From Candidatus Heimdallarchaeota archaeon (lineage in GTDB: Archaea > Asgardarchaeota > Heimdallarchaeia > Heimdallarchaeales > Kariarchaeaceae): a DNA stretch of 64,000 bases. The notes below the pieces were generated by a model, which did not search any database, was not told where the DNA came from, and saw nothing but the letters and a program-made list of their open reading frames with translations. The position numbers were made by a program, and so were the translations under genes. Positions 2,014 to 55,572 of the stretch are shown here, in pieces. The stretch spans positions 124,001 to 188,000 of the forward strand of contig JASBSB010000006.1 of NCBI GenBank assembly GCA_030149205.1, given 5' to 3'. Position 1 is the stretch's first letter. Every line of letters begins with the position of its first letter.

Positions 2014-3633
2014 TTAATATGCGGTTGAAAGGTGATCATTCATCATCAGATGTTTAAACAATTCATCATAGATTTCAACTAATGTAAGTTGAGAGATCTC
2101 CTGCTCAAACTTCATTTGTGTAGGAGTTTCAGTGTCCTTAAAAAAGGTTAGAGGATATATCATGACCTTGTACAGAATTTTAAAAGGGAGTATCAGAAAA
2201 TCAATGGTTGCCTTATACAGCACCTTGGTACTCTTTTTGCTGACTTGCCAAATCCTTGTTGGCATTCCATCAAGCTGCTTTGGTTTGTTTTTAAATTCAA
2301 TGATTTTATCAAATGAATGATTCAACTGATTCCCTATTTCTTTGTATCTCATTAATGAATATTCCAGCACTGGTCGATTTTTCAAGTTTACGAATTTTAT
2401 TACAAGGAACTTATAACTAACCAAGGCATACTGATAATACACGTAAAGTAAAATCAAGGGGATAAGAAACAAACCATTAAAAAAGTTCACAATCCTTTTT
2501 TTCCTTTTCTCCCAATTCGACTTAAAGGCGTAATGATCCTTCATAAATTGTCTCACTCCAAATGCAAGTCCAGTACTAATTTTCCCAAGATCCAAGTCAT
2601 TGACAAACTGTGAATATTTTTCTTCTTCATGGATTATAATTTTTAGGACTGTTGAAACCATTAGATTGTTAATCAGATCTTCATCCTCTTGGCCAGCAGT
2701 AATTTTGAAACTGAGATTCATCAAGTTAAATTTTGCTTCTTCAAGTGTTAGATGGTATCGATTTGCAAATTCCTTTAGAGCTTTGTTTCTCCTCCAAAAT
2801 TTTATAGTAAATTCGTTTTGGTAAATCTGCAAAGCAAATTCCCTGGCTTTCTCTTCCCTGATGTTTCTAAAATCTAGATTATTAAGACTTTCTTGAGACC
2901 CTTGCAAAATTTCGGATATTAGTTTCTTTGCTCGATCAGGGACTTTGCTTTCCCCAGTTCCAAGTAGATTTACAACTCGTTCGGAGATTTGATTTAACTG
3001 TTCTGACATCTCCTGCTTAAAATCCTCTAATGATGTCTGATCAACAGGTGGAAAATCAAGCACCAAGAAACCCGCGAACCCTCCATAATAAGGAATTGCC
3101 ATTAGTGATTCTAAGGTATTAAAAAATACCGCACCTCTATAATTGCCCATTTTCAGGCATCTTTCCTTGGCATTTTGAAAAACAAAAAAAGGTGGCCCAA
3201 AAATTCCAGCAACCGTTGCTAACACCATTGAGGTTGAACTGAAAATGTAGATCAGAACAGGTCCTAAATCACCGAATTGCCTCTGACTAAAATAAGCAAT
3301 CAGTCCGGCAGATAAAGCAACTGCTGATACTGCGTTATCTATGGTCTGACCAACCCCCTTTCTTAGAGCAAAGCTCTCACTCACCTCTTCTACCTTAGTG
3401 GATATATCCATTAATTGTGAGATGGTTTCTTCTGCTTCAATTCTAACTGGGTCTGTCATCAATCTGCTTAGGGCAAAAATATATGATCGGTTATCCTCGA
3501 GAAACGGCATTGCCTCTTGTAATTTTTGAGGAAAGATAAAATCGTAAATGTTCAACAGGATTTGAGCAGATATAGTTAACAGGAAAATGATAGGGGTGAG
3601 AATAAATATTATAAATGCTCGAATTTTACCCAC
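2014..3633 (-). CDS. multi-pass membrane protein of unknown function, paralogue A
   Basis: A 539-residue protein that I do not recognise. Hydrophobic segments lie near residues 7-28, 100-117, 125-150, 175-193, 385-405 and 470-492. Residues 200-370 are a charged helical region. Sequence marks include ALSRLMTDPVRIEAEETISQ near residue 55 and GIFGPPFFVF near 145. The start is GTG at 3633, placed about 23 bases after a TATA-like box, so the transcript is probably leaderless. The next gene upstream (3847-5466) encodes a protein of identical length and very similar sequence throughout: a tandem duplication in which the promoter was also copied. Function unknown. Confidence 0.8.
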   Translation of the reverse strand: MGKIRAFIIFILTPIIFLLTISAQILLNIYDFIFPQKLQEAMPFLEDNRSYIFALSRLMTDPVRIEAEETISQLMDISTKVEEVSESFALRKGVGQTIDNAVSAVALSAGLIAYFSQRQFGDLGPVLIYIFSSTSMVLATVAGIFGPPFFVFQNAKERCLKMGNYRGAVFFNTLESLMAIPYYGGFAGFLVLDFPPVDQTSLEDFKQEMSEQLNQISERVVNLLGTGESKVPDRAKKLISEILQGSQESLNNLDFRNIREEKAREFALQIYQNEFTIKFWRRNKALKEFANRYHLTLEEAKFNLMNLSFKITAGQEDEDLINNLMVSTVLKIIIHEEEKYSQFVNDLDLGKISTGLAFGVRQFMKDHYAFKSNWEKRKKRIVNFFNGLFLIPLILLYVYYQYALVSYKFLVIKFVNLKNRPVLEYSLMRYKEIGNQLNHSFDKIIEFKNKPKQLDGMPTRIWQVSKKSTKVLYKATIDFLILPFKILYKVMIYPLTFFKDTETPTQMKFEQEISQLTLVEIYDELFKHLMMNDHLSTAY

Positions 3634-3846: not shown

Positions 3847-5466
3847 CTAATAAGCTGTAGAAATATGATCACTCATCATTAACCGTTTGAATAACTCATC
3901 ATATATTTCAACAAGGGTTAACTGAGAGATCTCCTGTTCAAATTTTGTTCGAGTAGGTATTTCCGACTCCCTGAACAGCGATAAAGGAAATATCAAAATC
4001 TTGTATAATATTTTGAATGGAAGAACAAGAAATTCTAATACTGCCTTGATCAATATTTTGCTGCCTCTCTTGGTCCCATTCCAGAGTTTCGAGGACAAAT
4101 CATCGAATTGTTTTGGGGTATTTTTGATTTCAATTAGCCTATCAAATGTCCTGTCAAGCTGAATCCCAATTTCTGTGTATCTCATTTTGGAATATTCAAC
4201 CACAGGCCTGTTTTTTAAGTTAACAAACTTCATGACAAGGAATTTGTAACTTATTAATGCGTACTGATAGTAGGCATTAATCAGGATATAAGGAAGTACA
4301 AACAGACCATAGAAAAAGTTAAGAATCCTTGATTTCCTGTTCTTCCATTTAGATTGAAAGGCATAATGATCCTTCATAAACTGTCTGACTCCAAAAGCCA
4401 ATCCAGTACTGATTTTTCCAAGTTCTAAATCATCAACCAACTCTGAGTATTTTTGTTCCTCTTGGATGATTATTTTCAGGACAGCTGTTACCATTAAATT
4501 GTTGATTAGATCCTCGTCCTCTTGACCAGCAAGAATTTTAAAACTTAGGTTCATCAAATTATACTTTGCCTCTTCAAGGGTCAGATGGTATCGATTGGCA
4601 AATTCCTCAAGAGCTTTCTTTCTTTTCCAAAATTTTAAGGTAAATTCATTCTGGTAAATTTGAAGGGCAAACTCCCTAGCTTTTTCTTCCCTAATATTTC
4701 TAAAATCTATTTTGTTAAGGCTCTCTTGAGATTCGTCCAGGATCTCATTAATCAATCTTTTTGCCCTATCTGGAATTCTGCTTTCACCTGTCCCAAGTAG
4801 ATTCACAATTCGATCTGAAATTTCGTCTAACTGTTCTGAAATTTCCAGCTTAAATTCTTCTAATGAGGGCTGATCCACAGGTGGAAGATCTAGCACCAAA
4901 AACCCCGCAGCTCCACCATAAAAAGGTATTGCCATTAGAGATTCCAAGGTATTAAAGAGTACAGCCCCTCTATAGTTCCCGAATTTTAAACACCGTTCCT
5001 TAGCGTCTTTAAACACAAAATAAGGTGGCCCAAATATTCCCGCCAAGGTTGCTAACACCATTGAAGTAGAACTAAAAATATAGATCAATACTGGGCCAAA
5101 GTCACCGAATTGACTCTGACTAAAATAGGCAATCAATCCTGCGGATAGTGCCACTGCAGATAATGCATTGTCTATTGTTTGACCAACTCCCTTTCTAAGT
5201 GCAAAGCTTTCACCAATATCTTCTACTTTCGTAGAAATATCCACAAGTTGTGAGATAGTTTCTTCAGCTTCGATCCTAACTGGGTCTGTCATCAATCTAC
5301 TTAGAGCAAAAATAAAGGTGCGATTAACCTCCAGAAGTGGGATCGCTTCCTGTAGTTTAACTGGGAATAGAAAATCAAAGATATTTAATATAACCTGAGC
5401 AGTCATAGCTACAAGGAATACAACAGGGGTGAGAAATAGGATGCCAAGGGTTCGGATTTTACCCAC
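3847..5466 (-). CDS. multi-pass membrane protein of unknown function, paralogue B
   Basis: A 539-residue protein, the same length as its neighbour at 2014-3633 and alignable to it by eye without gaps. The two are nearly identical in the central membrane region (VGQTIDNALSAVALSAGLIA) and in the segment around GKISTGLAFGVRQFMKDHYA. They differ most at the N terminus and at residues 400-500. It has the same GTG start and same upstream box. Charge and hydrophobicity patterns are conserved despite many substitutions, so both copies appear to be kept under selection. It could form a hetero-oligomer with paralogue A (inference). Function unknown. Confidence 0.8.
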   Translation of the reverse strand: MGKIRTLGILFLTPVVFLVAMTAQVILNIFDFLFPVKLQEAIPLLEVNRTFIFALSRLMTDPVRIEAEETISQLVDISTKVEDIGESFALRKGVGQTIDNALSAVALSAGLIAYFSQSQFGDFGPVLIYIFSSTSMVLATLAGIFGPPYFVFKDAKERCLKFGNYRGAVLFNTLESLMAIPFYGGAAGFLVLDLPPVDQPSLEEFKLEISEQLDEISDRIVNLLGTGESRIPDRAKRLINEILDESQESLNKIDFRNIREEKAREFALQIYQNEFTLKFWKRKKALEEFANRYHLTLEEAKYNLMNLSFKILAGQEDEDLINNLMVTAVLKIIIQEEQKYSELVDDLELGKISTGLAFGVRQFMKDHYAFQSKWKNRKSRILNFFYGLFVLPYILINAYYQYALISYKFLVMKFVNLKNRPVVEYSKMRYTEIGIQLDRTFDRLIEIKNTPKQFDDLSSKLWNGTKRGSKILIKAVLEFLVLPFKILYKILIFPLSLFRESEIPTRTKFEQEISQLTLVEIYDELFKRLMMSDHISTAY

Positions 5467-41898: not shown

Positions 41899-42330
41899 TT
41901 ATACCTGTTGATAGTTCATACCTTGACGGGAAGCTATTTTGTTTTTGATTGATTCATAGGTAAGCTTAGATTTATCATCCTCATGAATTTGTGTTGATAA
42001 TCCTACAAAGCTGGACGTTACGGTTTTTTTAGTACCTGCATAACTCATTCGGAGTCTTACTGATGATTCTAAGGGCATCCAGAATAAAAATAACATACGA
42101 GTGTCGTCCAAGCCAACCCTATTTTTCATAGGAAAATCATAGAGAACATATCGGGGCTCATTATCAGGGAGCTCATTCACAACCTCTTCAAAGGATTGTT
42201 CTGTCCTTTTATCAAGGACAATGTGTTCATCCTCAATTTTCAGGATCATCCCCTGTGCTTTTTTCTCAAATCTCATTTTTTCATAATCTTCGATTATGGT
42301 ACTGTTCACTTCAATTCCAGTGGTACTCAT
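41899..42330 (-). CDS. ADF/cofilin-family actin-binding protein
   Basis: A 143-residue protein with the ADF/cofilin pattern: an N-terminal STTGIEVNSTIIEDYEKMRF (cofilins begin with a Ser-Gly segment before the first helix), central PRYVLYDFPMKNRV, then MLFLFWMPLESSVRLRMSY followed by the actin-binding long helix AGTKKTVTSSFVGL, and a final TYESIKNKI helix. Cofilins bind and sever actin filaments. The length matches the eukaryotic family (about 140-165). Asgard profilins and gelsolins are well known, cofilin-like proteins less so. A gelsolin protein is also in this window. Confidence 0.82.
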   Translation of the reverse strand: MSTTGIEVNSTIIEDYEKMRFEKKAQGMILKIEDEHIVLDKRTEQSFEEVVNELPDNEPRYVLYDFPMKNRVGLDDTRMLFLFWMPLESSVRLRMSYAGTKKTVTSSFVGLSTQIHEDDKSKLTYESIKNKIASRQGMNYQQV

Positions 42331-42392: not shown

Positions 42393-43064
42393 TTAAGATT
42401 GTTCAGGATTTTGAAAACTTGGTAGGAAGGAATAATTTTTTCTCGGTTTAAATGATCCTGAAATTGAGATATTTCTTTGAATAAAAGCCTCTGCTGCAGT
42501 TGTTCCAGCCTGGATACCCCGGAGATGAGTTCTGGCAGAATGGAAGCGAGAATAGAAATTATCTCCACCTTTGTGTGATTGTGATTCATAGATTTTTATC
42601 GCCTTGTCTCTGAGTGAAACAGTGTCACTGATATCAACCAATACTTCAGGTATATCGATTAATACAGTGGTTTCGGCTGACCAAACATTTGATACCTGAT
42701 GAGCCTCTCCTTGTGTGGTGTGACTCGCCCATTCTACAGCTTCTAACACTATTTCTTGAGTGATGCGATGTTCTTTGTGATAATCGTTCGGGATATGTGT
42801 AATCACATGCTGTGGTTTGTGTTTTACAATTAATTCACTCAATTGATTTTGAATCTTTCTGCTATTTTCCCAGGTTATATTCTTTTCATTTAAGGTGATC
42901 GGCAAAGTGTTTAGTATTGAACAAGCTTCCTTGAATTCATCTTCTCTTTTAGGATCTGCTGTTATACTAACAGAAACACTTTTAGAGTATTTAGCCAGAG
43001 TTCCTCCACAGGAAAATGTTTCATCATCCTGGTGGGAAAATATACTCATAATTTTATCTTGCAT
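42393..43064 (-). CDS. bshB: BshB-like N-acetylglucosaminyl-malate deacetylase (LmbE/PIG-L family)
   Basis: A 223-residue LmbE/PIG-L zinc deacetylase. The metal motif is SIFSHQDDETFSCGGTLAKY near residue 9; the family usually has HPDD, here HQDDE. The second histidine motif is NDYHKEHRITQEI. The final YESQSHKGGDNFYSR region is like that of BshB and related deacetylases. In bacillithiol synthesis it removes the acetyl group from GlcNAc-malate. The same genome segment holds bshA and bshC, which makes this the natural candidate, but a mycothiol-type or other amide substrate cannot be excluded. It starts 13 bases downstream of the RNase P RNA. Confidence 0.78.
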   Translation of the reverse strand: MQDKIMSIFSHQDDETFSCGGTLAKYSKSVSVSITADPKREDEFKEACSILNTLPITLNEKNITWENSRKIQNQLSELIVKHKPQHVITHIPNDYHKEHRITQEIVLEAVEWASHTTQGEAHQVSNVWSAETTVLIDIPEVLVDISDTVSLRDKAIKIYESQSHKGGDNFYSRFHSARTHLRGIQAGTTAAEAFIQRNISISGSFKPRKNYSFLPSFQNPEQS

Positions 43065-43077
43065 TTATAATCCTCAT

Positions 43078-43353
43078 GAGGTGAGAAGGTAATCCAGATT
43101 TTGTTTGATCCGCACGACAATCCTGCCTTGATCACGCAACATTCATCTTTGCTTGCTACCCGATTCCTCAGAAGGTGATTCATCGGAATCTGCTTGCAAT
43201 TGCACCACGGTGATGATCCGTTTCAGCATCCAATGGAAGTATCGTTTCTGCTATCAGAGCCAGGTTCTCACCTGAAAGGTTTACACCTTTACCGTTCACC
43301 TTCTGGTGTCTGGACTTTCCTCAGTTTCCCGCAGGTTGCGTTCTTCTCTCCTC
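43078..43353 (-). ncRNA. rnpB: RNase P RNA (A-type)
   Basis: On the minus strand the RNA starts GAGGAGAGAAG (43343-43353). This pairs with CTTCTCACCTC at the 3' end (43078-43088) with one A-A mismatch, forming P1. The universal CR-I sequence GAGGAAAGTCC lies at 43312-43322, and the CR-V-like ACAAAATCTGGATTAC is close to the 3' end, as in RNase P RNAs. About 276 bases, at the short end for archaea. Open frames over this region on either strand are accidental. It may be transcribed together with bshB, whose start is 13 bases away. Confidence 0.88.
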
Positions 43354-43395
43354 AAATTTCAAGTAAATTACTCTCTAATATAATCTTTGTGTTTA

Positions 43396-44469
43396 TCAAC
43401 TCATTCGGGAAATAATCTTAAATGTTTCATCGTCTACCTTATCATAAGTCACCAAAATATTCCGCTTTAACAGAGTTGTAATGACAAATATTGAATCTAT
43501 AGAGAGCAAAGCTGGGTTTCCTTCTAATCTAAGTGATTTCAGTGGTAGACATGCATCCATGGGAGGTATTGATTCAAGTTGATTATTTTGTAATGATAAA
43601 GTGTCCAAAGGAAGATTGATAAGTTGATACGGAAGTGACTTTAATTTGTTTCTTGATAAATAGCAATACCTTAAGCTTTGACAGCCACCAATGGTCTCTG
43701 GGAGATGAGTTATCTGATTATCTTGAAGCCATAATGATTCTAATCCCAACAGATTACCAATCGATTCAGGTACCTGAATCAGTTCATTATTGTGTCCAAA
43801 AAGTTGCCAGAGATTTCTCATTAACCCCACCTTTGGAGGTAAAAATTTTAGTTGATTGTATTGAACCGAGAGCTTGGTGACCTTATATAACAAATCTAAA
43901 TTTTCTGGGAGAGACCTCAATCTGTTGTTATTCAAAGTTAAAACCTGCAACTCTTTAAGTTTGGTTACATCCTCTGGAATAGCTCTCAAATGATTATGGG
44001 ATAGGTCTAGTTTTTTTAGTTTACTCAGGTTTGAAATGTGTTCAGGAATCTCGGTGATATGATTATTTGAGAGATGGAGGTACTCAAGATTCTTTAACTC
44101 AAATAATGCTTCAGGAATCTCAGTCAATTGATTGTTTGATAGGTTTAAAGTTCGTAGATTTTTTAATTCTGAGATATTCTCAGATAAGGATAAAAGGTTA
44201 TTATTTGACACAAAAAGATCTTTAAGATCTTGAAGCGCATATATTTTCTCTGGTAGACGCTTCAGGTGGTTAAAGGACAACTGTAAGCCCTGTAGACCCT
44301 GAAATTCAAATATGATGTTAGGAAGGTATCCTAACCCTAAATCTGTTAAACGTAAATAGGTGAGAACATTACCTCTGTCAAATTCAGTTCTGGGATAATC
44401 ACTTACCAATCCTCTTAGGTCACTTGAAATTTGTTTTTCAAGTCTAAGTAAATTGGCAAGGTCATCCAT
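43396..44469 (-). CDS. leucine-rich-repeat protein (Shoc2-like)
   Basis: A 357-residue protein made almost wholly of about a dozen leucine-rich repeats of the 23-residue type, for example LRTLNLSNNQLTEIPEALF, with the consensus L-x-x-L-x-L-x-x-N-x-L-x-x-I/L-P. There is no signal peptide or membrane segment, so it is cytoplasmic. Such repeats form a curved protein-binding surface. Eukaryotic proteins of this type scaffold Ras signalling; whether this one binds small GTPases is inference. It lies between rnpB and korA on the same strand. Confidence 0.88.
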   Translation of the reverse strand: MDDLANLLRLEKQISSDLRGLVSDYPRTEFDRGNVLTYLRLTDLGLGYLPNIIFEFQGLQGLQLSFNHLKRLPEKIYALQDLKDLFVSNNNLLSLSENISELKNLRTLNLSNNQLTEIPEALFELKNLEYLHLSNNHITEIPEHISNLSKLKKLDLSHNHLRAIPEDVTKLKELQVLTLNNNRLRSLPENLDLLYKVTKLSVQYNQLKFLPPKVGLMRNLWQLFGHNNELIQVPESIGNLLGLESLWLQDNQITHLPETIGGCQSLRYCYLSRNKLKSLPYQLINLPLDTLSLQNNQLESIPPMDACLPLKSLRLEGNPALLSIDSIFVITTLLKRNILVTYDKVDDETFKIISRMS

Positions 44470-44527
44470 TCTACAAGTAATTAACGTATCTTTTGATATT
44501 AAAAGCTATTCACACTTCTCAAATGGG

Positions 44528-46450
44528 TTATGAAAAACTCTCTTGATTGATGACAATATTTTTTCTATTGTTCCACTCTCTCTTTGGCATTGAAAAGAGT
44601 GGTTCTATACCATCAATTACCATATTTTTCATAAATTTAACCATACGAGTTCTGGTTAATAACTCACCATCTATATGTCGAATAATTCCATTAGGTCTCC
44701 AACCAGTATACGTAAACAGCAATTGTTCAAGTTGCCCAGTATAGTTTATTTCTACAATAATAGATTTTTTGATTTTATTCAATTCAGTTTTAACTTTCTC
44801 AACAGGTAGTGGAAACATATTAGTGAAAATTAAACCATTCCACTTTAATTCAGTCTGTTCATTTAACAGTTCAACAGTTTCTTCAACCGCTGTACCAATA
44901 GAACCCCACCCTATTAATGTTATATCTGCATCGTCACCATTGACCCACTCTGGTGGATCCATATCCTCAGTAGCTAATTTTTCTAATTTTCGAAACCTTT
45001 TGTCAAACATTTGGACTTTTAGTTTTCTTGCCTTGGAAAGACCTGCAGAATGTCCTGCAAGTGAGAAAGAATCTACATCATGTTCAGCACCAACAGCCAC
45101 ATGGATCCCATCAGGATGAGGAGCGAATAGCCTGGGTGATATTCCATCTTCAGTTAGAGCATATCTGTGATATTCTGGCTCTTCTTCAGTTGGACCTTCC
45201 CAAACCTTTCCTCTATCAATTTTCACATCAAAGTTAAATGGTTCTACATTTTGAATCCCTTCAGCCAGACCAAAATCTGAGAGAATAAAAACAGGAATTT
45301 GATACTTTTCTGCAATGTTGAATGCCTTTATAGTCAGATGATAGGCATCTGTAATATCTTTTGGTGAGAAAACGGCTCTCGGGAATTCTCCATGTGAAAG
45401 ATTAATCACTGAATGTAAATCTCCCTGTTCGGTCTTGGTAGGCATTCCAGTTGATGGACCTCCTCTTTGAGCATCAACAATTACAACAGGAGTTTCAGTT
45501 ATTCCTGCCAGGCCTACATTTTCAGCCATCAATGATATTCCAGGCCCTGATGTTGCTGTCATGGCCCTTACTCCCGTCCATGATGCACCTATAATCATTG
45601 CGATGGCAGCTAACTCATCTTCAGCTTGTCTTACTACGATTCCGAATTTTGAAGCGTTTTGAGAGAGGTATGTCAAAATACTTGAGGCTGGTGTGATTGG
45701 ATACTGAGCAACAAATTTGAGTCCTGCTGCTGCTGCTCCAAGCGCCACAGCATGATTCCCATTAATCACGATCCCATTTGACTTTTTAAGTTTGCCTTCA
45801 GTTAAAATTAATTCGAAGTCTAGACTATCTCTTGAGAATTCAAACCCTTTTTGTAATGCTTCAACATTCATGTCAAAAAGATCTTTTCGGGGAAATCTTT
45901 TTCTTAATACTTCATGGTACGGTTCAAGTGGAAGACTAAGAATTTCCAATATCGCACCAATAGCAACTGTATTTCCTAATACAGGTTTTTTAAGATCAAT
46001 CTCACGAGCAATCGTTGTGAGAGGAATCCCTAGAAGCACCAGATTTTTCTGTTCTATAACATCCATAAATTCCGTCAGATCGACCTTTCGAGTGTTATTG
46101 TAGATCAAAACACCATTAGGTTTAATCTCGTTTAAGTGGATCCCCACAGAGTTTGCATCAAGGGCAACTATCATATCGACAACGTTATCTGCTGTTGCAA
46201 AGTTTTCGCTGGATATCTCAATATGGTACCAAATATGACCTCCCCTAATAGCTGATTGATTCCCAGGGTAGCCATGTACACTATAACCCAACGTATTGAA
46301 ATATTTTGTAATCAATAAACCTGTAGACTGAAGACCATCACCAGCAGCACCACCCCATTTCATGGCGAATCGTTTCAGTGGTTTGCCTGATTCAATAGGT
46401 TTCTGTGTGTCTACGTCTTTTAACACTTCTTCCAGTGAAATTGAACTCAT
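44528..46450 (-). CDS. korA: 2-oxoacid:ferredoxin oxidoreductase, fused gamma-alpha subunit
   Basis: A 640-residue chain. The gamma domain comes first (MKWGGAAGDGLQSTGLLITK to about residue 190). The alpha domain follows, with GAAAAGLKFVAQYPITPASS, TATSGPGISLMAENVGLAG and QRGGPSTGMPTKTEQGDL. The C-terminal domain is KNMVIDGIEPLFSMP. This gamma-alpha fusion is the form used by archaeal and many bacterial Kor enzymes. The beta subunit is at 38501-39406. Together they make a TPP enzyme that yields reduced ferredoxin. Confidence 0.9.
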   Translation of the reverse strand: MSSISLEEVLKDVDTQKPIESGKPLKRFAMKWGGAAGDGLQSTGLLITKYFNTLGYSVHGYPGNQSAIRGGHIWYHIEISSENFATADNVVDMIVALDANSVGIHLNEIKPNGVLIYNNTRKVDLTEFMDVIEQKNLVLLGIPLTTIAREIDLKKPVLGNTVAIGAILEILSLPLEPYHEVLRKRFPRKDLFDMNVEALQKGFEFSRDSLDFELILTEGKLKKSNGIVINGNHAVALGAAAAGLKFVAQYPITPASSILTYLSQNASKFGIVVRQAEDELAAIAMIIGASWTGVRAMTATSGPGISLMAENVGLAGITETPVVIVDAQRGGPSTGMPTKTEQGDLHSVINLSHGEFPRAVFSPKDITDAYHLTIKAFNIAEKYQIPVFILSDFGLAEGIQNVEPFNFDVKIDRGKVWEGPTEEEPEYHRYALTEDGISPRLFAPHPDGIHVAVGAEHDVDSFSLAGHSAGLSKARKLKVQMFDKRFRKLEKLATEDMDPPEWVNGDDADITLIGWGSIGTAVEETVELLNEQTELKWNGLIFTNMFPLPVEKVKTELNKIKKSIIVEINYTGQLEQLLFTYTGWRPNGIIRHIDGELLTRTRMVKFMKNMVIDGIEPLFSMPKREWNNRKNIVINQESFS

Positions 46451-46534
46451 TAATTAACCTCAACCAACTACCAAGATATTACTTTAAATACAGAACTATA
46501 ATGAACCCAATTTTTGACCTATAATCATTCAATA

Positions 46535-48166
46535 TTAAACTTGAGTGTTCAAGTAGTTGAACCCATGAGGGCTAGAAACAGGGTTATAACTTCTAATGTA
46601 AGTAGGAATATAATCTGCAAGTCCAGTCAATAAAGCTAGGTCGATCCATATCCATGATACCTCTTGTCCAAATTTCTCTTTGGTAAACCTCCCAAATTGC
46701 CAAGAAAGATATTTACTAGGGTCAGATTTATGCTGAACCTTTAACAGAGAAAGAAAGGTCGAATGTATAAATTCTCTGAGTTGTATCTCAACCTTCCTCA
46801 AGCCAGCTAGATCCTCTGACTTTTGACATGTAACCTGGTCTCTTAAGATTTTAAACAGGAACTGATTTTGCAGACTCGGGATATTCCTTTTTTCTAATTC
46901 TTTCCCTAGTTTCTCAATCCAATTTGAATTGTAAAAGGCTCTTTTATACCTGAAATAAATAGGAGTTTTTATTGGAATCGCATTAATAGCATTTGAAACC
47001 TGAGCATAGTATGCAATTTCACCAGGTCCTGAAATTCTTATCTTTATATTCAGGATGTTTTGAACTATTGCTTGTGAAGATTCAACCCTTGGCCCCAAAT
47101 CTTTGATAATCGATTTCAAATCTTCCTCAGTTTTAACTAGGAACTCATAATCTTTTTTGCAAACCGAACATTGACCATAAAGTAGAAATCCGTCCTGATG
47201 CTTAGATTTTGAAATATTAACACGGTATCCCGAGCAGGGACATTCATAAGAGAAAGGTAAGTAAGATTCATCTCGTTGGGGGAGAGAGGGCTTATATCCC
47301 AATTTGATGAGCTCTTCGGTTTGCTTGTTGAATATTTTGTGAAAGTCATCTGAACAAAGAATTTTAAAGTACTGAGATGTCAGTAACTCTCTTAGATCTG
47401 GGTGGGATGTCGGAAGGAATACAATCCCAAGATCATTTATTTTATTAGATATAGTTCCCCAAATTTTGACGAAGAAATCTGGAAAGGTCTTTGAGTTAGA
47501 ATGTGCAAATCTGATTAATGTTTTAATGTGGGCAAGTCGCTCATCCAATAGTTTTTTCTTGTCAACTGGTTTTACAGAACTTTTAAACCCGTTTATCGAT
47601 TGATCGATCTGAAGAAAGACATTTTCTAGCCATTTTTCATCAGGAATTTCAACTCTATGGATAACAGTATCTTCCTGTACCTCTAATGAATCATTTGCAT
47701 CTAGAATTACCGCATTAGGTGAGATCGGGTTTGGAAAATAAGTTCTATAGAGCTCTTTTTGATACCCATCATAATCACCAACCATAAATATTGGTGCTAT
47801 CTTTTTTCCTTCAACATCTACAACTTCTGATATGGCTGAAAGAATTGATATTTTGTTTGCAATAAAACCAGGACCTCCCAAAATCACCGGTTGTTGACCA
47901 GCCATCACTGAACCAAAATTCAATCGTTGGATATTATCTTCAACTTTTTGAGAATAAATTGAGTGCTCAATATGGAAATTTCTTAACAATACCTTTAATT
48001 TGTCAAGATCGTCTGCATCAGTTTCGTTGTTTTCAAAAGAAATCTGATCAGATAGCTTGTTAATCTCTGATCCAATATTCCCCCAAAATGGATTGATTAA
48101 CTCTCTCTTTTCCAAAAATAAATCATACAGGGTATTTGGATTAAGAAGATCAGAATCCTTGTTCAC
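46535..48166 (-). CDS. bshC: BshC-like bacillithiol synthase (cysteine-adding enzyme)
   Basis: A 543-residue protein starting at GTG 48166. MAGQQPVILGGPGFIANKIS near residue 92 is the signature of BshC, where bacterial members have TGQQ-x-GLFGGPLYT. It is followed by APIFMVGDYDGYQKELYRT (bacterial W-x-x-ED-H-D-x-x-E region). Near the end come QVSNAINAIPIKTPIYFRYK and a coiled-coil tail. In bacteria BshC joins cysteine to glucosaminyl-malate. Near residue 310 there are paired cysteines, CPCSG and CSVC, which look like an inserted zinc ribbon. Divergent from a TrxR-like flavoprotein. Confidence 0.85.
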   Translation of the reverse strand: MNKDSDLLNPNTLYDLFLEKRELINPFWGNIGSEINKLSDQISFENNETDADDLDKLKVLLRNFHIEHSIYSQKVEDNIQRLNFGSVMAGQQPVILGGPGFIANKISILSAISEVVDVEGKKIAPIFMVGDYDGYQKELYRTYFPNPISPNAVILDANDSLEVQEDTVIHRVEIPDEKWLENVFLQIDQSINGFKSSVKPVDKKKLLDERLAHIKTLIRFAHSNSKTFPDFFVKIWGTISNKINDLGIVFLPTSHPDLRELLTSQYFKILCSDDFHKIFNKQTEELIKLGYKPSLPQRDESYLPFSYECPCSGYRVNISKSKHQDGFLLYGQCSVCKKDYEFLVKTEEDLKSIIKDLGPRVESSQAIVQNILNIKIRISGPGEIAYYAQVSNAINAIPIKTPIYFRYKRAFYNSNWIEKLGKELEKRNIPSLQNQFLFKILRDQVTCQKSEDLAGLRKVEIQLREFIHSTFLSLLKVQHKSDPSKYLSWQFGRFTKEKFGQEVSWIWIDLALLTGLADYIPTYIRSYNPVSSPHGFNYLNTQV

Positions 48167-48299
48167 AAAACATAAATTTTTGATATCTTTTAATGTTCTT
48201 TCGAAGGGATAAGTTTCACCTCAGAAATTCTGATTGAAAATTTACAATTTGGGAGGATTATCTAAAAATCTTATAAGGAAGAAGGGTTAATATCCATTA

Positions 48300-49211
48300 A
48301 TGTTTAACATGCCAAACGGTGAACTAATTCACACTGATGTTGTTGTAATAGGCGCTGGAATTGCGGGAATAAACGTAGCAAAAATCATTAAGGAGTTCAC
48401 AGAAAAAGAGGTTTGGCTATTAGGGAGCCCATATGAGTCGCAGGTGGCAAAGGCTGGATACATCGTGGATTCAGATGATGTCAGCTCTCAAAAAGTTGGA
48501 CAACAATTAATAAAAGAAATGTTTGAAGAGACAAAAGGTTTGGGAATTAAAACTAAAACCAGCTTAGTGACTGAAATAGAGCCTCAGGGTGAGAAAGTAC
48601 TTTCAAAAACTAAATTTCAAGACTTTATCTCAGATTATATCATAATTGCAACAGGAGCAAAACAGATGAACAGCTTAATTCCAGGATTTGATGACCTGCT
48701 ACACCAAGGTGTTTCTGATTGTGCTGTTTGTGATGCGAACTTGTATAAAAACAAAAAAGTTGCCTTATTTGGTAATCATGAGTACTCTCTCCAAAGTTTG
48801 AAGTTTTTGCTAAATGTTGTACCTGATGTATATTTATTATGGGAAGGGGAGAATCTATCGACAACAGAACTTCCTCTTGATAAATCCAAAATTTATTTGG
48901 GTGTAAAGAATTTACGAATTTTTGGGAATGAGGTAGTAGAAGAGGTAAAGTTTGAATCTAACAAAGAGCAGCATTCGTTAAAAATCAATGGACTCTTTGT
49001 TGAATCCAAGCCACGGTCAAACTCCACGATCTTTCAGAATTTACTTGAAGTAACAGAAAATGGAGAAATTGTTACTGATCAATATTTTAGAACCTCTGCA
49101 AAGAACATTTATGCAATAGGGGACGTGACTTCAAAAGAAAAATCTGTGGCAAGTGTATTTAATCAGCTAAAGAGTTTTAAAAATCTTGTAAAATCCAAGA
49201 CTATCTTATAA
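48300..49211 (+). CDS. thioredoxin-reductase-like flavoprotein without a standard NADPH motif
   Basis: A 303-residue protein of the thioredoxin-reductase fold. The FAD motif is VVVIGAGIAGINVAKII and the second FAD segment is NIYAIGDVTS. A redox Cys-x2-Cys is in VSDCAVCDANLYKNK near residue 142, as in TrxR. The NADPH-binding glycine pattern expected right after it is broken: the protein has VALFGNHEYSLQSL, and the basic NADPH-2'-phosphate motif is missing too. It may take electrons from ferredoxin or another flavin partner, or be specialised. Its place divergent from bshC makes a role in reducing bacillithiol disulfide plausible (inference). A TATA-like CTTATAAGG lies 28 bases upstream. Confidence 0.78.
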   Translation: MFNMPNGELIHTDVVVIGAGIAGINVAKIIKEFTEKEVWLLGSPYESQVAKAGYIVDSDDVSSQKVGQQLIKEMFEETKGLGIKTKTSLVTEIEPQGEKVLSKTKFQDFISDYIIIATGAKQMNSLIPGFDDLLHQGVSDCAVCDANLYKNKKVALFGNHEYSLQSLKFLLNVVPDVYLLWEGENLSTTELPLDKSKIYLGVKNLRIFGNEVVEEVKFESNKEQHSLKINGLFVESKPRSNSTIFQNLLEVTENGEIVTDQYFRTSAKNIYAIGDVTSKEKSVASVFNQLKSFKNLVKSKTIL

Positions 49212-49255
49212 TTCCTTGTCCAAAAGCGTTAAAACTTGATAAGATACTGTATCCT

Positions 49256-50851
49256 GTGCAAATAAAATTCGGGATCATTGAAACTACAATCTTTCAAAAG
49301 CGGTTAGAGAGCATTGCTGAGGAAATGAGTAGGGTATTGAGGAGAGCCTCATACTCACCAAACATCAAAGAGAGAGCAGACTTTTCATGTGCGATATTCG
49401 ACAGTGAGGGGAGATTAATGGCTCAGGCTGAGGCAATACCTGTACATCTGGGATCAATGGGGTTTGTTGCAAAGCCAGTTATAAATAAATTTCAAGGAAA
49501 ATGGAGTGAGGGGGACGCAATAATCGTAAATTCACCTCGTTCTGAATTTGGTGGAACCCACCTTCCCGATATTACCTTGTTATCACCGATTTTTGTTGAA
49601 GAAAAACTGGCTTATGTGGTTGCAAATCGTGCTCATCATGCAGATGTTGGGGGTATGGCACCAGGTTCGCTTCCTGCAGATTCAGTTGAAGTGTTCCAAG
49701 AGGGTCTAATAATTCCACCAATAAGATTATTCAAAAAAGGAAGGGTAAACTTAGATGTTCTTGAATTGATTTTAGAAAACGTCAGAACCCCAGATGAAAG
49801 AAAAGGAGACCTAAACGCACAGTATGCAAGCCTATCCCTTGGTACAAGAAGGTTAAAATCAGTTTTGGGAACAAGTTCATTTTCAGAAATAGTTCAAATT
49901 AACACAAATATTTTAGATTATTCAGAATCGGCAACGAAAAAGATTCTTAAGACTTTACCAAAAGGTTCAGGGACATTTGAAGATACTTTAGATAACGATG
50001 GTTTTAGTCAATCGCCTGTGAAAATTAGATGTTATGCTAATTTGACAGATCAAGGTGAATTACTCTTTGATTTTACAGGAAGTGATTCTGAACAACTGAG
50101 TAATTGTAATGCACCGCTTTCAATCACAACCTCATGTGCTTATTATGCCACTAGACTGTTAACAGGGCCATCAGTTCCAACAAATGAAGGTTGTTTCCGC
50201 TCAGTTAAGGTTATTGCTCCGGAAAATAGTATCCTAAACCCCTCTAAAAATGCAGCAACTTCAAGCGCTAACACAGAGACCAGCCAAAGAATTGTTGATG
50301 TAATCCTTGGAGCACTCAGTCAATGGATCCCTTTAATTCCAGCTGCATCACAGGGAACCATGAATAACGTTATCCTAGGTGGGATTTACAAAGAAGAAAA
50401 TTGGACAATTTATGAAACTCTAGGAGGAGGAGCTGGGGCAAATTTTGAAAATGAGGGGACATCCGCAATACAGTGTCATATGACCAATACTGAGAATACA
50501 CCAATAGAAGCTCTAGAAACACAGTACCCCTTAATAATAAGAGAGTACAGGATTAGAGAGGGCTCTGGGGGATTAGGTGAAAAGGTTGGTGGAGATGGGT
50601 TAATTAGAACATATGAGTTTGTGGATAAAACTACTGTTTCGTTACAGACTGAGAGAAGAGTGTCTAACCCTTATGGCATAAAGGGAGGGAAACCTGGGGA
50701 AAAAGGTGAAAACATTCTCCTACAAAAGGGTAAAAAAGGTGAAAAATTAAGGGGTAAAACATCCTGCCGGATGGAAAGTGGTGATATGCTAATTATTAAA
50801 ACCCCAGGTGGTGGAGGATACGGATCCCTTACAAAACAACCTCTCCTTTGA
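49256..50851 (+). CDS. hyuB: hydantoinase B / oxoprolinase subunit B
   Basis: A 531-residue HyuB-family protein starting at GTG 49256. Family marks are IIETTIFQKRLESIAEEMSR at the start, FSCAIFDSEGRLMAQAEAIP, GSMGFVAKPVI, VNSPRSEFGGTHLPDITLL, NRAHHADVGGMAPGSLP and the end GDMLIIKTPGGGGYG. With HyuA it forms the ATP-dependent N-methylhydantoinase/5-oxoprolinase type enzyme. The unknown gene at 50898 lies between it and hyuA. Exact substrate not predictable. Confidence 0.9.
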   Translation: MQIKFGIIETTIFQKRLESIAEEMSRVLRRASYSPNIKERADFSCAIFDSEGRLMAQAEAIPVHLGSMGFVAKPVINKFQGKWSEGDAIIVNSPRSEFGGTHLPDITLLSPIFVEEKLAYVVANRAHHADVGGMAPGSLPADSVEVFQEGLIIPPIRLFKKGRVNLDVLELILENVRTPDERKGDLNAQYASLSLGTRRLKSVLGTSSFSEIVQINTNILDYSESATKKILKTLPKGSGTFEDTLDNDGFSQSPVKIRCYANLTDQGELLFDFTGSDSEQLSNCNAPLSITTSCAYYATRLLTGPSVPTNEGCFRSVKVIAPENSILNPSKNAATSSANTETSQRIVDVILGALSQWIPLIPAASQGTMNNVILGGIYKEENWTIYETLGGGAGANFENEGTSAIQCHMTNTENTPIEALETQYPLIIREYRIREGSGGLGEKVGGDGLIRTYEFVDKTTVSLQTERRVSNPYGIKGGKPGEKGENILLQKGKKGEKLRGKTSCRMESGDMLIIKTPGGGGYGSLTKQPLL

Positions 50852-50897
50852 GTTTCTACATGAAAATGAAAATAAATATATATACTGCAAAATATCT

Positions 50898-52226
50898 ATG
50901 AGTATAGGTTGGTTTAGAATTCTTCACAGAAATTCAAATAGGCCAGTTCAAGGAGATTTCAATGCTCATATGAACAGCAATGGTTCTAATGTAAAAACAG
51001 TAATAGTTGCGGCAGTCCCAGAAATTAACCGAAACATCTCTTCCCTCTTTGCTAAATTTAAATTTGACATCATCGGTTCTACAACCTCTCTTGATGAGGC
51101 ACACACCATATTGCGAAAATCTCAACCAGAAGGGATAGTATACTTTCTTGATGTTGATATCAATGAGGTTCTTACTGCCTTCCAAATCTTTGATGAATTA
51201 CCCCAGACCCCAATTCTCCTCTTAGGGCAATTAGATGCCCTTATTAAGGTTAAATTGAAAAAACTAAAAAACCCAACCATGCATTCTGATTACCCACTTA
51301 GGAATCCATTCTCTGTTTTAAATAGATTTAAGTCATTAATCCTGGGTGATACAGATAATTCTGATATCTTTGCTCTTGAATTTATCAACCATATTCTCAA
51401 TGAGATTTACTTATTAACACCAAGAACATACAAAAAAACGGTGAAGGCTTTAATTACCCAAGTATTTCAGAATGTCGAGAAAAGGAACTCAAACTTTGTG
51501 TTTGATCAAAACACACTAACAATTTTTTATTCAATTGACGTTACTGAAATTAAAACTCAACAAATGATCTTACTAGTTTCGAGCTTTGCACTGAACGAAT
51601 TTATCCAATTGTTAGATAAAAATATCGATGAGCATTGGAGTCATTCACTGGTTCAGGATGCGATTCTCCAAGTTCTTATAAAATTTGGAAACAAAAATCA
51701 AAAATTGCTTCAGGTTTTCATTGATCAATTTGACGACTTAGCTGAATATAAATCAACCCTAAACCTCCCAACTGGGTCAAAGGATGAACAATTAGATGTA
51801 CATGTTGGACTAATTACTCTTGAGAATGATGGACCAGTCCTCAAGAAGTTCATTGGCTCTGGATCATTATTTGACCCTGTTAATGTTGCCCAGCTTGTGT
51901 TATTGGTTGGTCAAGGAGAATCTTATCGTGAAGGAATATATGGACCTGTTCCGTTTAATACCCCTGTAGGAGATTATGTCACAATAATTGCTAGTAAAAA
52001 AATGAAATCAGATACCCTAACGGATGAAAGGATGGGTGGGACAACACTCGCATTATGTGTTGGTATATTCCATAGATCTTTAGTTAAGACTATTAAAGTT
52101 AGAAAGGTATTCAAAACCATATTCTACCCCTTCCTTGAGAAGTTATCTGTAAATGATATTGATGAAAATATACTATCAAGGATTAATCAGGGGATATTGA
52201 ATTATCTTCAGGATAATACTAGTTAA
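50898..52226 (+). CDS. unknown protein with receiver-like N domain, between hyuB and hyuA
   Basis: About 442 residues from ATG 50898. The frame is open from 50808, but a TATA-like AATAAATATA at 50871-50880 fits a leaderless start at 50898, and the earlier part overlaps hyuB. The segment VKTVIVAAVPEINRNISSLF then YFLDVDINEVLTAF resembles a receiver (CheY) fold, but the phospho-acceptor region is not typical. The C-terminal 120 residues (VGLITLENDGPVLKKFIGSG then MGGTTLALCVGIF) recall longin/roadblock-like domains of Asgard proteins. Tentative. It may have no relation to the hydantoinase subunits. Confidence 0.5.
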   Translation: MSIGWFRILHRNSNRPVQGDFNAHMNSNGSNVKTVIVAAVPEINRNISSLFAKFKFDIIGSTTSLDEAHTILRKSQPEGIVYFLDVDINEVLTAFQIFDELPQTPILLLGQLDALIKVKLKKLKNPTMHSDYPLRNPFSVLNRFKSLILGDTDNSDIFALEFINHILNEIYLLTPRTYKKTVKALITQVFQNVEKRNSNFVFDQNTLTIFYSIDVTEIKTQQMILLVSSFALNEFIQLLDKNIDEHWSHSLVQDAILQVLIKFGNKNQKLLQVFIDQFDDLAEYKSTLNLPTGSKDEQLDVHVGLITLENDGPVLKKFIGSGSLFDPVNVAQLVLLVGQGESYREGIYGPVPFNTPVGDYVTIIASKKMKSDTLTDERMGGTTLALCVGIFHRSLVKTIKVRKVFKTIFYPFLEKLSVNDIDENILSRINQGILNYLQDNTS

Positions 52227-52279
52227 AATTAAATTAGAGCTTAGTCACAGTTTATTAACAAACCACTAAAATTTCCCTT

Positions 52280-54262
52280 ATGTGGAAAATTGTTGGAGTT
52301 GATGTTGGAGGTACATTCACTGATGTGATAGCCATTGATCAAAGCTCTAGGGTTCGTGTGTTTAAAATCCCATCCACACCAGAAAATCCAATAGATGCAG
52401 TAACTAGTGCAATTGATACATTAGATGGTGACATAATTGAACTTTATCATGGAACCACAGTAGCTACTAATCATGTTCTTCAACAAAATGATGCCAACCT
52501 CGTTTTCATTACTACTCAAGGCTTTAAAGATGTAATTGAAATTGGTAGACAGAACAGACTGAATATCTATGACATTATCCCAACCCGATCAAAATCTCTG
52601 GTAAGAAGAGACCATAGAGTTGAAGTTGAAGAAAGAGTGTTAGCAACTGGGAAAATAGAAAAAGAAGTCACCGTTGAGGAATTAGATAATCTTAAAGAAA
52701 AAATCAAATTCCTGATGGATCATGATAAAATTAATGGAATTGCCATTGGATTTCTCTTTAGTTTTCTAAACCCTAGAAATGAAATATTGGTTGAGTCATC
52801 TCTTCAGTCCTTAGGGGTACCAATATCAAGATCATCAGCTATTGTTCCAGAATATCGTGAGTATGAACGCTTCAGCACAACAATCTTAGACGTATATCTT
52901 AAACCTGTACTTGAAACATATACCTTAAATTTAAGAAAGTCAATTCTCGACTCTGGAATAGTAAAAAATCTAGCAATAATGAAGTCTAGTGGCGGGTTAA
53001 CATCAACAAAATCAGTATTAAAAAAACCAGTAGAGTTGTTGATTTCTGGTTTAGCAGGTGGGATGCTAGCAGCAAAACATACATCAGAATTGACTCATAC
53101 TCCAAATATTCTAAGCTTGGATATTGGAGGAACTAGCACAGATTTAGGTCAGATTAAAAACTTCAATTACCAGATGAAAGATGAAATCAAAATTGCAAAC
53201 ACCCCGGCTTTTATTCCTGTTGTTGATGTTATTACTATAGGAGCTGGAGGAGGGTCTATTGTTGAATTAGACGGAGGGTTCCTAAAAGTCGGACCAGAAA
53301 GTGCTGGAGCAAACCCTGGTCCAATTTCGTACAATTTAGGTGGGGATAAACTTACCATTTCTGACATAAATTTAGCTTATGGAATTTTAGCTGAGAACCT
53401 TGGAGGAGGGATTGTACAATTAAATAAACCGTTAGCATTAAAAGCAATCGAAAATATGGCTAATAATTTAAAAACGGATGTAAATTCGTTTGTGGTGGGT
53501 GTTCGAAAAATTTTTCATGAAAACATTGTTGCTTCCTTAAGGCAGATTTCCACTGAGAGAGGAGAAAATCCCAATGAATTTTCTTTGTTAGGATTTGGTG
53601 GGGCTGGTCCATTACATACTGCAGAATTGGCAGATATTTTAGGAATATCAAATGTATTGATACCTCCATTTCCGGGAATTTGGTCTGCATATGGGCTATT
53701 GTTCGGAAATTATAGGTATGACATCAAAAAGACAAATTTCGAAATTCTTGATCATGTTAATGACAAAACTCTTGAAAAGAATTTTTCAGAATTGAAACAA
53801 GAATTAATTTATCAAATTGAAGACGACAGGATACAAATGGACAACGTAAAGTTTAGCGAGGTAATAGATGTAAGATTTAAAGGGCAATCTTACCATTTAC
53901 CAATTGAATGGAAACAAGACAAAACTCTACTAAAAGAAGATTTTTTTGAGGAGCATAGGAAGTTATATGGGTTTGTTGACAGAGCAGAAATCGTTGAAAT
54001 TGTCGCATTAAAGATGAGTGCTGTTATTGAATCTGAGAATGTTAAACTACCTAACATCAAACAAAAAACTTGGAATGAGAGTCCGGGAATGAGAAAAGTC
54101 ATTGGGATTGGAAATGTTGAAATCCATGATAAGGAAGAATTTTCAATAAACTCCTTGTATCAGGGTCCATTAATAATCGAACAAGAGGACACAACAATTT
54201 GGGTTCCACCTAAATGGAAGTTTCGAGTTGATAAACTTGGGTTTGTACGCCTCACAAAGTAA
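52280..54262 (+). CDS. hyuA: hydantoinase A / oxoprolinase subunit A
   Basis: A 660-residue HyuA-family protein with an actin-like ATPase fold. Marks are VGVDVGGTFTDVIAID at the start, HGTTVATNHVLQQ, PEYREYERFSTTILDVYLKP, SSGGLTSTKS, LDIGGTSTDLG, TIGAGGGSIVELDGGFLKVG and GFGGAGPLHTAELAD. It is the ATP-binding partner of HyuB. It begins 53 bases after the unknown middle gene, in the same direction. The substrate remains open, since the family covers oxoproline, hydantoins and acetone-type carboxylases. Confidence 0.92.
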   Translation: MWKIVGVDVGGTFTDVIAIDQSSRVRVFKIPSTPENPIDAVTSAIDTLDGDIIELYHGTTVATNHVLQQNDANLVFITTQGFKDVIEIGRQNRLNIYDIIPTRSKSLVRRDHRVEVEERVLATGKIEKEVTVEELDNLKEKIKFLMDHDKINGIAIGFLFSFLNPRNEILVESSLQSLGVPISRSSAIVPEYREYERFSTTILDVYLKPVLETYTLNLRKSILDSGIVKNLAIMKSSGGLTSTKSVLKKPVELLISGLAGGMLAAKHTSELTHTPNILSLDIGGTSTDLGQIKNFNYQMKDEIKIANTPAFIPVVDVITIGAGGGSIVELDGGFLKVGPESAGANPGPISYNLGGDKLTISDINLAYGILAENLGGGIVQLNKPLALKAIENMANNLKTDVNSFVVGVRKIFHENIVASLRQISTERGENPNEFSLLGFGGAGPLHTAELADILGISNVLIPPFPGIWSAYGLLFGNYRYDIKKTNFEILDHVNDKTLEKNFSELKQELIYQIEDDRIQMDNVKFSEVIDVRFKGQSYHLPIEWKQDKTLLKEDFFEEHRKLYGFVDRAEIVEIVALKMSAVIESENVKLPNIKQKTWNESPGMRKVIGIGNVEIHDKEEFSINSLYQGPLIIEQEDTTIWVPPKWKFRVDKLGFVRLTK

Positions 54263-54471
54263 TAAAACGCATATTTAATCAGATTCTTTAAAAAAGGTTA
54301 AGCTCAAATAGTTAAACAAACAGATTGTTTTATTTTTGACCTTGTTTATAGTATTCACTTCCTATAATACTAAAATTAAAAGGACCATAATTCCAATCAT
54401 TAAGCCAGACGTAATTAAATTGTCAAAATCAATGGTAAGATATACATAGCTATTCTTGATCTTCTTTCCTG

Positions 54472-55572
54472 CTATTGTAATAAAGTTTCATAGATACTCT
54501 CGTATTCAGCAATTATTTTTTCTTTGTTAAATTTCTCTATTACAAATTTCCTACCAAACTCACCAAATCTGTTCCTTAAACTTTCATCACCCATTAATTT
54601 TTCTAATGAGTTTATGGCTGATTCTACAGAATTTACCTCAAATAGGTAACCAGCAGAACCATGTACACACACCTCAGGGATGCCACCCACGTTTGTAGCC
54701 CAAACGGGGGTACCTGATGACAATCCTTCAGCAATTGTCAATCCAAATGATTCAATCTGACTCGGAGCAGCTAAAATGGAGGAAGTTGAAAACTCTATTG
54801 GGATATCTTTTGTTGGAGGCTGAAACATTATTTTATCTAAAAACCCCCCCTCTTTTGCAATCCGATGACAAATCGGTCTCTCAGGCCCGTCACCTATTAA
54901 TTTAAGTTTCCAATTAGGGTAATTTTCTTGCACTTCACCAAAGATTTTCACTAAAAATGGAATTCTTTTGACCGGTCGGTAATTACTGGCTGCCACGATA
55001 ACTTTTTGTTTAGGTTGATCCTTTGGAGAAAATAACTCGGTGTCTATAAAATTATAAACTGTTAACGGTGTTTTTTCAAGAGAAAATGTCTCAGTTGCAA
55101 GATTAGACAAATAATTTGAAACTGTTGTTACTTGATTTGAATTATTCAAGGCTTCTCCAACTATTTCCTTTATCGAGTCTTTGTTACCAAGTGTATGAAC
55201 ATCTGAACCATGAAGCGTGACAACAGATTTTGACTTAGTTCCTTTTGTTGCTAAGTATGAAGAAACTGCATTTGGGATGCCATAATGAGTGTGAATTAAA
55301 TCTAAGCTATGTTCCTTTATAGCTTTTCTTATTGTATTTGCTAACGGAATTGTATAAAGTGCGCCGATCTCTTGAAATAATGGATACTTCTCCATTTCAA
55401 CATTGTGAAAAAATAAATTTGGATTTCCTTGAACTTTTTCATCAAGAAATAAAGGCTTTTTGTAGGAGATAATGTGAACTTCATGCCCTTTTTGGGACAG
55501 TTCAACTGCAAGATTACTTGCAACCATCCCACTACCACCCAATGTGGGAAAGCCAACAATCCCAATCTTCAC
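54472..55572 (-). CDS. bshA: BshA-like N-acetylglucosaminyl-malate synthase
   Basis: A 366-residue GT4-family glycosyltransferase. The N terminus MKIGIVGFPTLGGSGMVAS matches BshA (bacterial MKIGI-x-CYP-x-GGSGVVA). Other shared blocks are LDLIHTHYGIPNAVSSYLA, VVTLHGSDVHTLG, TVYNFIDTELF, ASNYRPVKRIPFLVKIF, LIGDGPERP and ESFGLTIAEGLSSGTPVWAT followed by GGIPEV. BshA joins GlcNAc from UDP-GlcNAc to L-malate, the first step of bacillithiol synthesis. The malate-binding pattern around LHGSD is kept. Together with bshB and bshC the full pathway is encoded within 13 kb. Confidence 0.86.
   Translation of the reverse strand: MKIGIVGFPTLGGSGMVASNLAVELSQKGHEVHIISYKKPLFLDEKVQGNPNLFFHNVEMEKYPLFQEIGALYTIPLANTIRKAIKEHSLDLIHTHYGIPNAVSSYLATKGTKSKSVVTLHGSDVHTLGNKDSIKEIVGEALNNSNQVTTVSNYLSNLATETFSLEKTPLTVYNFIDTELFSPKDQPKQKVIVAASNYRPVKRIPFLVKIFGEVQENYPNWKLKLIGDGPERPICHRIAKEGGFLDKIMFQPPTKDIPIEFSTSSILAAPSQIESFGLTIAEGLSSGTPVWATNVGGIPEVCVHGSAGYLFEVNSVESAINSLEKLMGDESLRNRFGEFGRKFVIEKFNKEKIIAEYESIYETLLQ

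Follow-up and report, generated by a model that had tools for sequence, protein, structure and literature searches.

The bsh genes of the window

The window, the whole 64,000-nucleotide stretch of DNA from a Candidatus Heimdallarchaeota archaeon that was analysed, contains three genes that resemble those of the bacillithiol pathway (Table 1). Bacillithiol is a protective small thiol, so far known from bacteria. The three open reading frames that a sequence-only reading had reported, encoding an LmbE-type deacetylase (BshB), BshC and BshA, were all found at their places on the minus strand. Two genes of the hydantoinase/5-oxoprolinase family (HyuB/HyuA-like) lie between bshC and bshA, and homologues of them again stand next to bsh genes elsewhere in the window organism's family, in other genera. 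The gene adjoining bshB encodes a protein with a cofilin/ADF domain, an actin-binding family of eukaryotic type. Elsewhere in the window two tandem genes encode proteins of 539 amino acids that are 77% identical, a duplication; a Pfam scan of the first of them gave no match.

Table 1. Features of the window, in order of position
Feature	Positions	Strand	Description	Basis
Tandem protein, first copy	2014-3633		539 aa	
Tandem protein, second copy	3847-5466		539 aa	
Cofilin/ADF-domain protein	41899-42330		adjoins bshB	PF00241, 91 bits
bshB	42393-43064	-	LmbE/PIG-L deacetylase, archaeal BshB type, 223 aa	profiles, synteny, tree, predicted structure
bshC	46535-48166	-	predicted cysteine-adding enzyme, divergent archaeal type, 543 aa	PF10079, predicted fold, tree
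Cys-rich insert of BshC	47159-47242	-	zinc-ribbon-like; C309, C311, C333, C336	
GQQPVILGGPGF motif of BshC	47864-47899	-	residues 90-101	
TrxR-like flavoprotein	48300-49211	+	CAVC motif; divergent neighbour of bshC	linkage
HyuB/HyuA-like genes	49256-50851, 52280-54262		between bshC and bshA	
bshA	54472-55572	-	predicted UDP-GlcNAc:L-malate GT4 glycosyltransferase, 366 aa	TIGR03999, alignment to solved BshA

BshA

The window BshA scored 327.4 bits with TIGR03999, above the curated equivalog cut-off (273.7), and covered positions 1-374 of the 375 in the profile. The alignment begins at residue 1, which confirms the earlier observation that the protein matches bacterial BshA from its first residue on. 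It could be aligned end to end with the BshA proteins of known structure (2JJM, 3MBO, 5D00), and 70 of the 97 columns that are at least 90% conserved in bacterial BshA are kept. One conserved loop is altered: the bacterial HGTDIT reads HGSDVH in archaeal BshA. L-malate is the predicted acceptor of the window enzyme, a protein with a changed loop.

BshC and its cysteine-rich insert

BshC matched the Pfam family PF10079 with 60.8 bits (gathering score 27), whereas its score with TIGR03998 was only 65 bits, far below the equivalog cut-off of 265.8. Judged by its sequence, it belongs to the Pfam family as a divergent archaeal type and not as canonical bacterial-type BshC. The sequence-only reading had named a GQQ...GGPGF signature. 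The motif GQQPVILGGPGF is present, but GGPGF turned out to be the archaeal form and not a general feature of BshC; in this stretch only Q92, G98 and K105 are near-invariant across bacteria and archaea. Of 30 columns with at least 90% conservation in bacterial BshC, 20 are kept in the window protein. Some residues that are invariant in bacteria are missing from archaeal BshC; for example, Y407 and V503 of the window protein stand in place of bacterial arginines.

The AlphaFold model of the window BshC had a pLDDT of 89.8. In a Foldseek search its top PDB match was Bacillus subtilis BshC (4WBD; E 1.5e-19, TM 0.68, 587 alignment columns), and the second was class I lysyl-tRNA synthetase (1IRX; E 3e-7, TM 0.41).

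Archaeal BshC carries an insert that usually contains three or four cysteines. Asgard families are denoted here by f and a number, f1 being the family of the window. All 16 Bathyarchaeia, f11 and f5 sequences have four cysteines; the set is partly decayed, with fewer cysteines in f2, f3, f4 and some f1 sequences. The insert was absent from the 30 bacterial and five bacterial-type Asgard BshC sequences examined. Plasmid records yielded only three bacterial BshC sequences, which were set aside. The zinc-ribbon-like insert probably binds zinc. As of a 2015 review, in vitro BshC activity had not been demonstrated for any bacterium (PMC4360819), and the divergent protein offers itself for study of the cysteine-adding reaction.

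Identification of BshB

The LmbE protein of the window matched PF02585 with 60.8 bits, above the Pfam cut-off, and stayed far below the NCBIfam equivalog cut-offs for BshB1 (TIGR04001; 57 against 182.5 bits) and BshB2 (TIGR04000; 62 against 195.25 bits). Of the five PIG-L proteins in the genome, the window LmbE is the weakest Pfam match, so BshB could not be named from sequence alone and that approach was dropped. The claim that an LmbE deacetylase fits BshB was in this respect unsafe; synteny, co-occurrence and trees nevertheless pick out the same protein. Its orthologues (phmmer E 1e-29 to 1e-78) adjoin bshA and bshC in families f1, f4, f11 and f28. In f3 no BshB had been seen next to bshA. 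A profile of the archaeal LmbE type, which gave matches at E <= 1e-74 in 86 Asgard genomes, f3 included, located the f3 orthologue elsewhere on the chromosome. In a quick tree the remaining four PIG-L proteins of the genome fell outside the archaeal BshB clade.

The HxDD and HxxH motifs are present in the window LmbE (H11, D13, D14, H96, H99), which also retains R40, E43 and Q162. The metal-binding and catalytic residues, whose roles we take from established knowledge of the LmbE/PIG-L family, are among the 19 columns kept of the 32 that are at least 90% conserved in bacterial BshB. A loop that bacterial BshB has between T35 and R40 is absent from archaeal BshB, including that of the window. 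The AlphaFold model (pLDDT 88.9) had as its top Foldseek match B. cereus BC1534 (2IXD; E 5e-16); next came diacetylchitobiose deacetylases of archaea and, with E 1.5e-14, B. subtilis BshB (6ULL). In vitro deacetylation of GlcNAc-Mal has been shown for B. cereus BshB homologues, BC1534 among them (PMC4360819).

The changed BshC residues and the HGSDVH loop of BshA mean that the substrates could differ from those of the bacterial enzymes. One alternative is a cysteinyl-glucosaminide with an aglycone other than malate, which would be the archaeal sister of the thiols bacillithiol and mycothiol. The missing BshB loop also points that way, and variation of this kind is suggested by f19 genomes, which lack BshA and have a GT2 glycosyltransferase in its place, in a trio with LmbE and a BshC-like protein (L108:7246-10574, L109:2-2983). 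The f19 trio is possibly a different cysteinyl-sugar thiol pathway. We nevertheless regard a non-malate aglycone in the window's own pathway as unlikely, as BshA exceeds its equivalog cut-off in 90 Asgard genomes and the window protein retains most of the columns that are fully conserved in BshA.

Linkage and co-occurrence of the three genes

Among the 46 fetched loci having both bshA and bshC, the two genes were at most 1 kb apart in 44, and bshB was there too in 32. The three genes are adjacent in sister genera of the window's family, and their spread in the window is therefore a local rearrangement. The sequence-only reading had taken the spacing as an argument against a very recent transfer. 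That argument fails; its conclusion holds on other grounds, namely the trees described below. In f28 a gene of the phosphoglucomutase/phosphomannomutase family (L101:7528-8925) is conserved near the bsh cluster, and possibly serves the supply of UDP-GlcNAc.

Of 218 Asgard genomes, 88 had one or more of the three archaeal-type genes, and 79 of these 88 had the whole trio. The count leaves out f7 and f23 genomes and sets aside f5, f6, f18 and f19, which have BshC-like proteins only. Genomes with an incomplete trio were mostly fragmented assemblies. Co-occurrence of the archaeal trio is thus close to all-or-none, with Fisher p-values (about 1e-50) that overstate the evidence because the genomes are related. 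When 228 Asgard genomes were searched, the complete gene set was present in about 40%. Misbinning is unlikely as the source of the genes, since the Asgard and Bathyarchaeia assemblies that have them include two made of a single contig (G008, G185) and one, from the Bathyarchaeia order, in which they sit on a contig of 2.3 Mb (G271).

BshC-like proteins occur where no BshA exceeded the threshold, in f5 and f6 (same class as the window; L126-L130, L107) and in f18, and the fold alone is therefore no proof of bacillithiol. The neighbour of the f5 BshC-like proteins is a class I/II aminotransferase, likewise found beside BshC in f28. This neighbourhood, and the class I lysyl-tRNA synthetase as second structural neighbour of the BshC model, would fit a system of another purpose, in which a sugar-modifying GT4/LmbE pair and an aminoacyl-tRNA synthetase-like ligase make no thiol. 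We consider such a role very improbable in view of the specific, almost all-or-none trio and of the YpdA/Bdr-type reductase that genomes of the window's family also encode.

Candidate recycling reductases

That reductase, a candidate for the reduction of bacillithiol disulfide, lies outside the window, on the same contig about 160 kb from the bsh genes (G000:C2:342363-343331), and scored 355.1 with TIGR04018 (cut-off 339.9). Three relatives of the same family also had YpdA/Bdr above the cut-off. Among the relatives searched such scores were restricted to this family, and the gene may have been acquired by transfer. Cys14 of Firmicutes Bdr is absent from the archaeal YpdA proteins, which have a valine in the GxGPVG motif. 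According to a review, Deinococcus Bdr likewise has its cysteines elsewhere, and structural work cited there assigns Cys14 no direct role (PMC8945050).

The gene for the thioredoxin-reductase-like (TrxR-like) flavoprotein diverges from bshC in the window and stands beside it in all but one of the five genera of the family. In f3 a related flavoprotein with shared N-terminal motifs adjoins bshB. The linkage makes the window protein a candidate partner reductase. It was ruled out as YpdA, since it has a CxxC motif, TIGR04018 was not among its 25 matches listed, and the gene that does exceed the YpdA cut-off is the distant one described above.

Phylogeny and distribution

In careful trees all three window proteins fell into one archaeal clade, composed of Asgard and Bathyarchaeia sequences and separate from bacteria, with supports of 99/94 for BshA, 100/100 for BshC and 100/100 for BshB. 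Rooting of the BshA tree was attempted with further GT4 proteins that the genome encodes, but the two chosen as outgroups did not group together and sat on branches of 7-10; the tree was rebuilt without them. For want of a reliable root, the trees would look the same after a single early transfer from bacteria as under an ancient origin in archaea.

A genome-wide scan with BshA had Heimdallarchaeota MAGs on top; below them came numerous bacterial phyla and two MAGs of Bathyarchaeota. Within the order to which one of these two belongs, BshC was found in 16 and BshA in 17 of 32 genomes, with bshB nearby. About a dozen other Bathyarchaeia genomes (L293-L298) have a bacterial-type BshC (E about 1e-90), apparently through separate acquisitions. 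Bacterial-type operons in the order bshC-bshB-bshA occur in families f7 (same class as the window) and f23; they lie outside the archaeal clade, and their BshC and BshB cluster with bacterial sequences.

These operons show that bsh genes do move into Asgard archaea, and the pathway is otherwise bacterial; the YpdA gene, above its cut-off only in the window's family among the relatives searched, may itself be a transfer. A recent uptake of the window's genes as a cluster from bacteria is all the same extremely unlikely, given the 94-100% support for an archaeal clade apart from both bacteria and f7/f23, and an insert found only in the archaeal type of BshC. The recurrence of the set in Asgard archaea and some Bathyarchaeia as a distinct archaeal lineage also argues against recent uptake. 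Asgard archaea most likely have an archaeal-type bacillithiol pathway that is complete and probably old.

A proposed bacillithiol-type pathway

The window most probably holds a complete pathway for a low-molecular-weight thiol of the bacillithiol type in a Heimdall-lineage Asgard archaeon, the product being bacillithiol or a very close variant; we give this reading a probability of nearly 0.8. The sequence-only reading had come to the same view, which linkage, co-occurrence, trees and structures uphold. The data show the identity and linkage of the genes, their co-occurrence, the clade of each protein, the predicted folds and the conserved active sites, from which the reactions, the precise product, zinc in the insert and the recycling are inferred. 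BshA would form GlcNAc-malate from UDP-GlcNAc and L-malate, the LmbE protein (BshB) would remove the acetyl group to give GlcN-malate, and BshC would add L-cysteine, yielding Cys-GlcN-malate, which is bacillithiol. Recycling of the oxidised dimer would fall to the YpdA/Bdr-type flavoprotein of the genome, with a possible contribution from the TrxR-like flavoprotein next to bshC. The enzymes fall in the archaeal branch of each family, a branch found in several Asgard families and in some of the Bathyarchaeia. With BshC and BshB divergent and below the bacterial equivalog cut-offs, the archaeal pathway should still work like the bacterial one.

More tentatively, and with more doubt than confidence, bacillithiol-type thiols might be an old archaeal trait, one that several Asgard lineages had from a common ancestor and that Bathyarchaeia share, with a zinc-ribbon in BshC reminiscent of class I aminoacyl-tRNA synthetases and perhaps an archaeal variant of the thiol. 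No known organisms are more closely related to the archaeal ancestor of eukaryotes than the Asgard archaea. If the reading is true, that ancestor may have had a bacillithiol-type thiol before glutathione. The pathway also provides a directly testable answer to the question of which small thiol protects Asgard archaea.

Comparison with known systems

A 2025 paper stated that no archaea have the full pathway, on the basis of BLAST searches in which C. tepidum sequences were the queries and E-values were limited to 1e-20 (PMC12719100). The complete Asgard trio contradicts this statement. The divergent archaeal BshC and BshB would be missed at such thresholds, and strict-threshold BLAST from bacterial queries can overlook the archaeal branch. 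In the literature searched, which included few subscription papers and no preprints, we found no earlier report of a complete co-occurring pathway, the archaeal clade, the insert or the extension to Bathyarchaeia.

The bacterial BshA-BshB-BshC system of Bacillus, Staphylococcus and Deinococcus has the same three enzyme families and folds as the window. It differs in that the window BshC is only 14-18% identical to bacterial BshC and carries the cysteine-rich insert, BshB lacks the loop, and all three proteins belong to a separate archaeal clade. The mycothiol system (MshA-MshB-MshC) likewise combines a GT4 glycosyltransferase, an LmbE deacetylase and cysteine addition, but its models match the window weakly (MshA 67.7 bits, cut-off 462.5; MshB 25.9, cut-off 224.35). 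Class I lysyl-tRNA synthetase is a far weaker match to the BshC model than is B. subtilis BshC (E 3e-7 against 1.5e-19).

By remarking that bacillithiol is, to its knowledge, not established in Asgard archaea, the sequence-only reading implied a novelty that was not supported. The portion of a 2020 review consulted lists 39 archaeal homologues of BshA and as many of BshC, most of them Asgard, but only two of YpdA; it proposes that archaea may make bacillithiol, which had not been detected in archaea at that date (PMC7278568). The Asgard BshA and BshC homologues and the proposal of bacillithiol are common to that portion and to our analysis, whereas BshB, synteny, trees, Bathyarchaeia and the variant features do not figure in it. 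The bacillithiol idea itself is thus published, and what is added here is the completeness of the pathway, the archaeal clade, the insert and the wider distribution.
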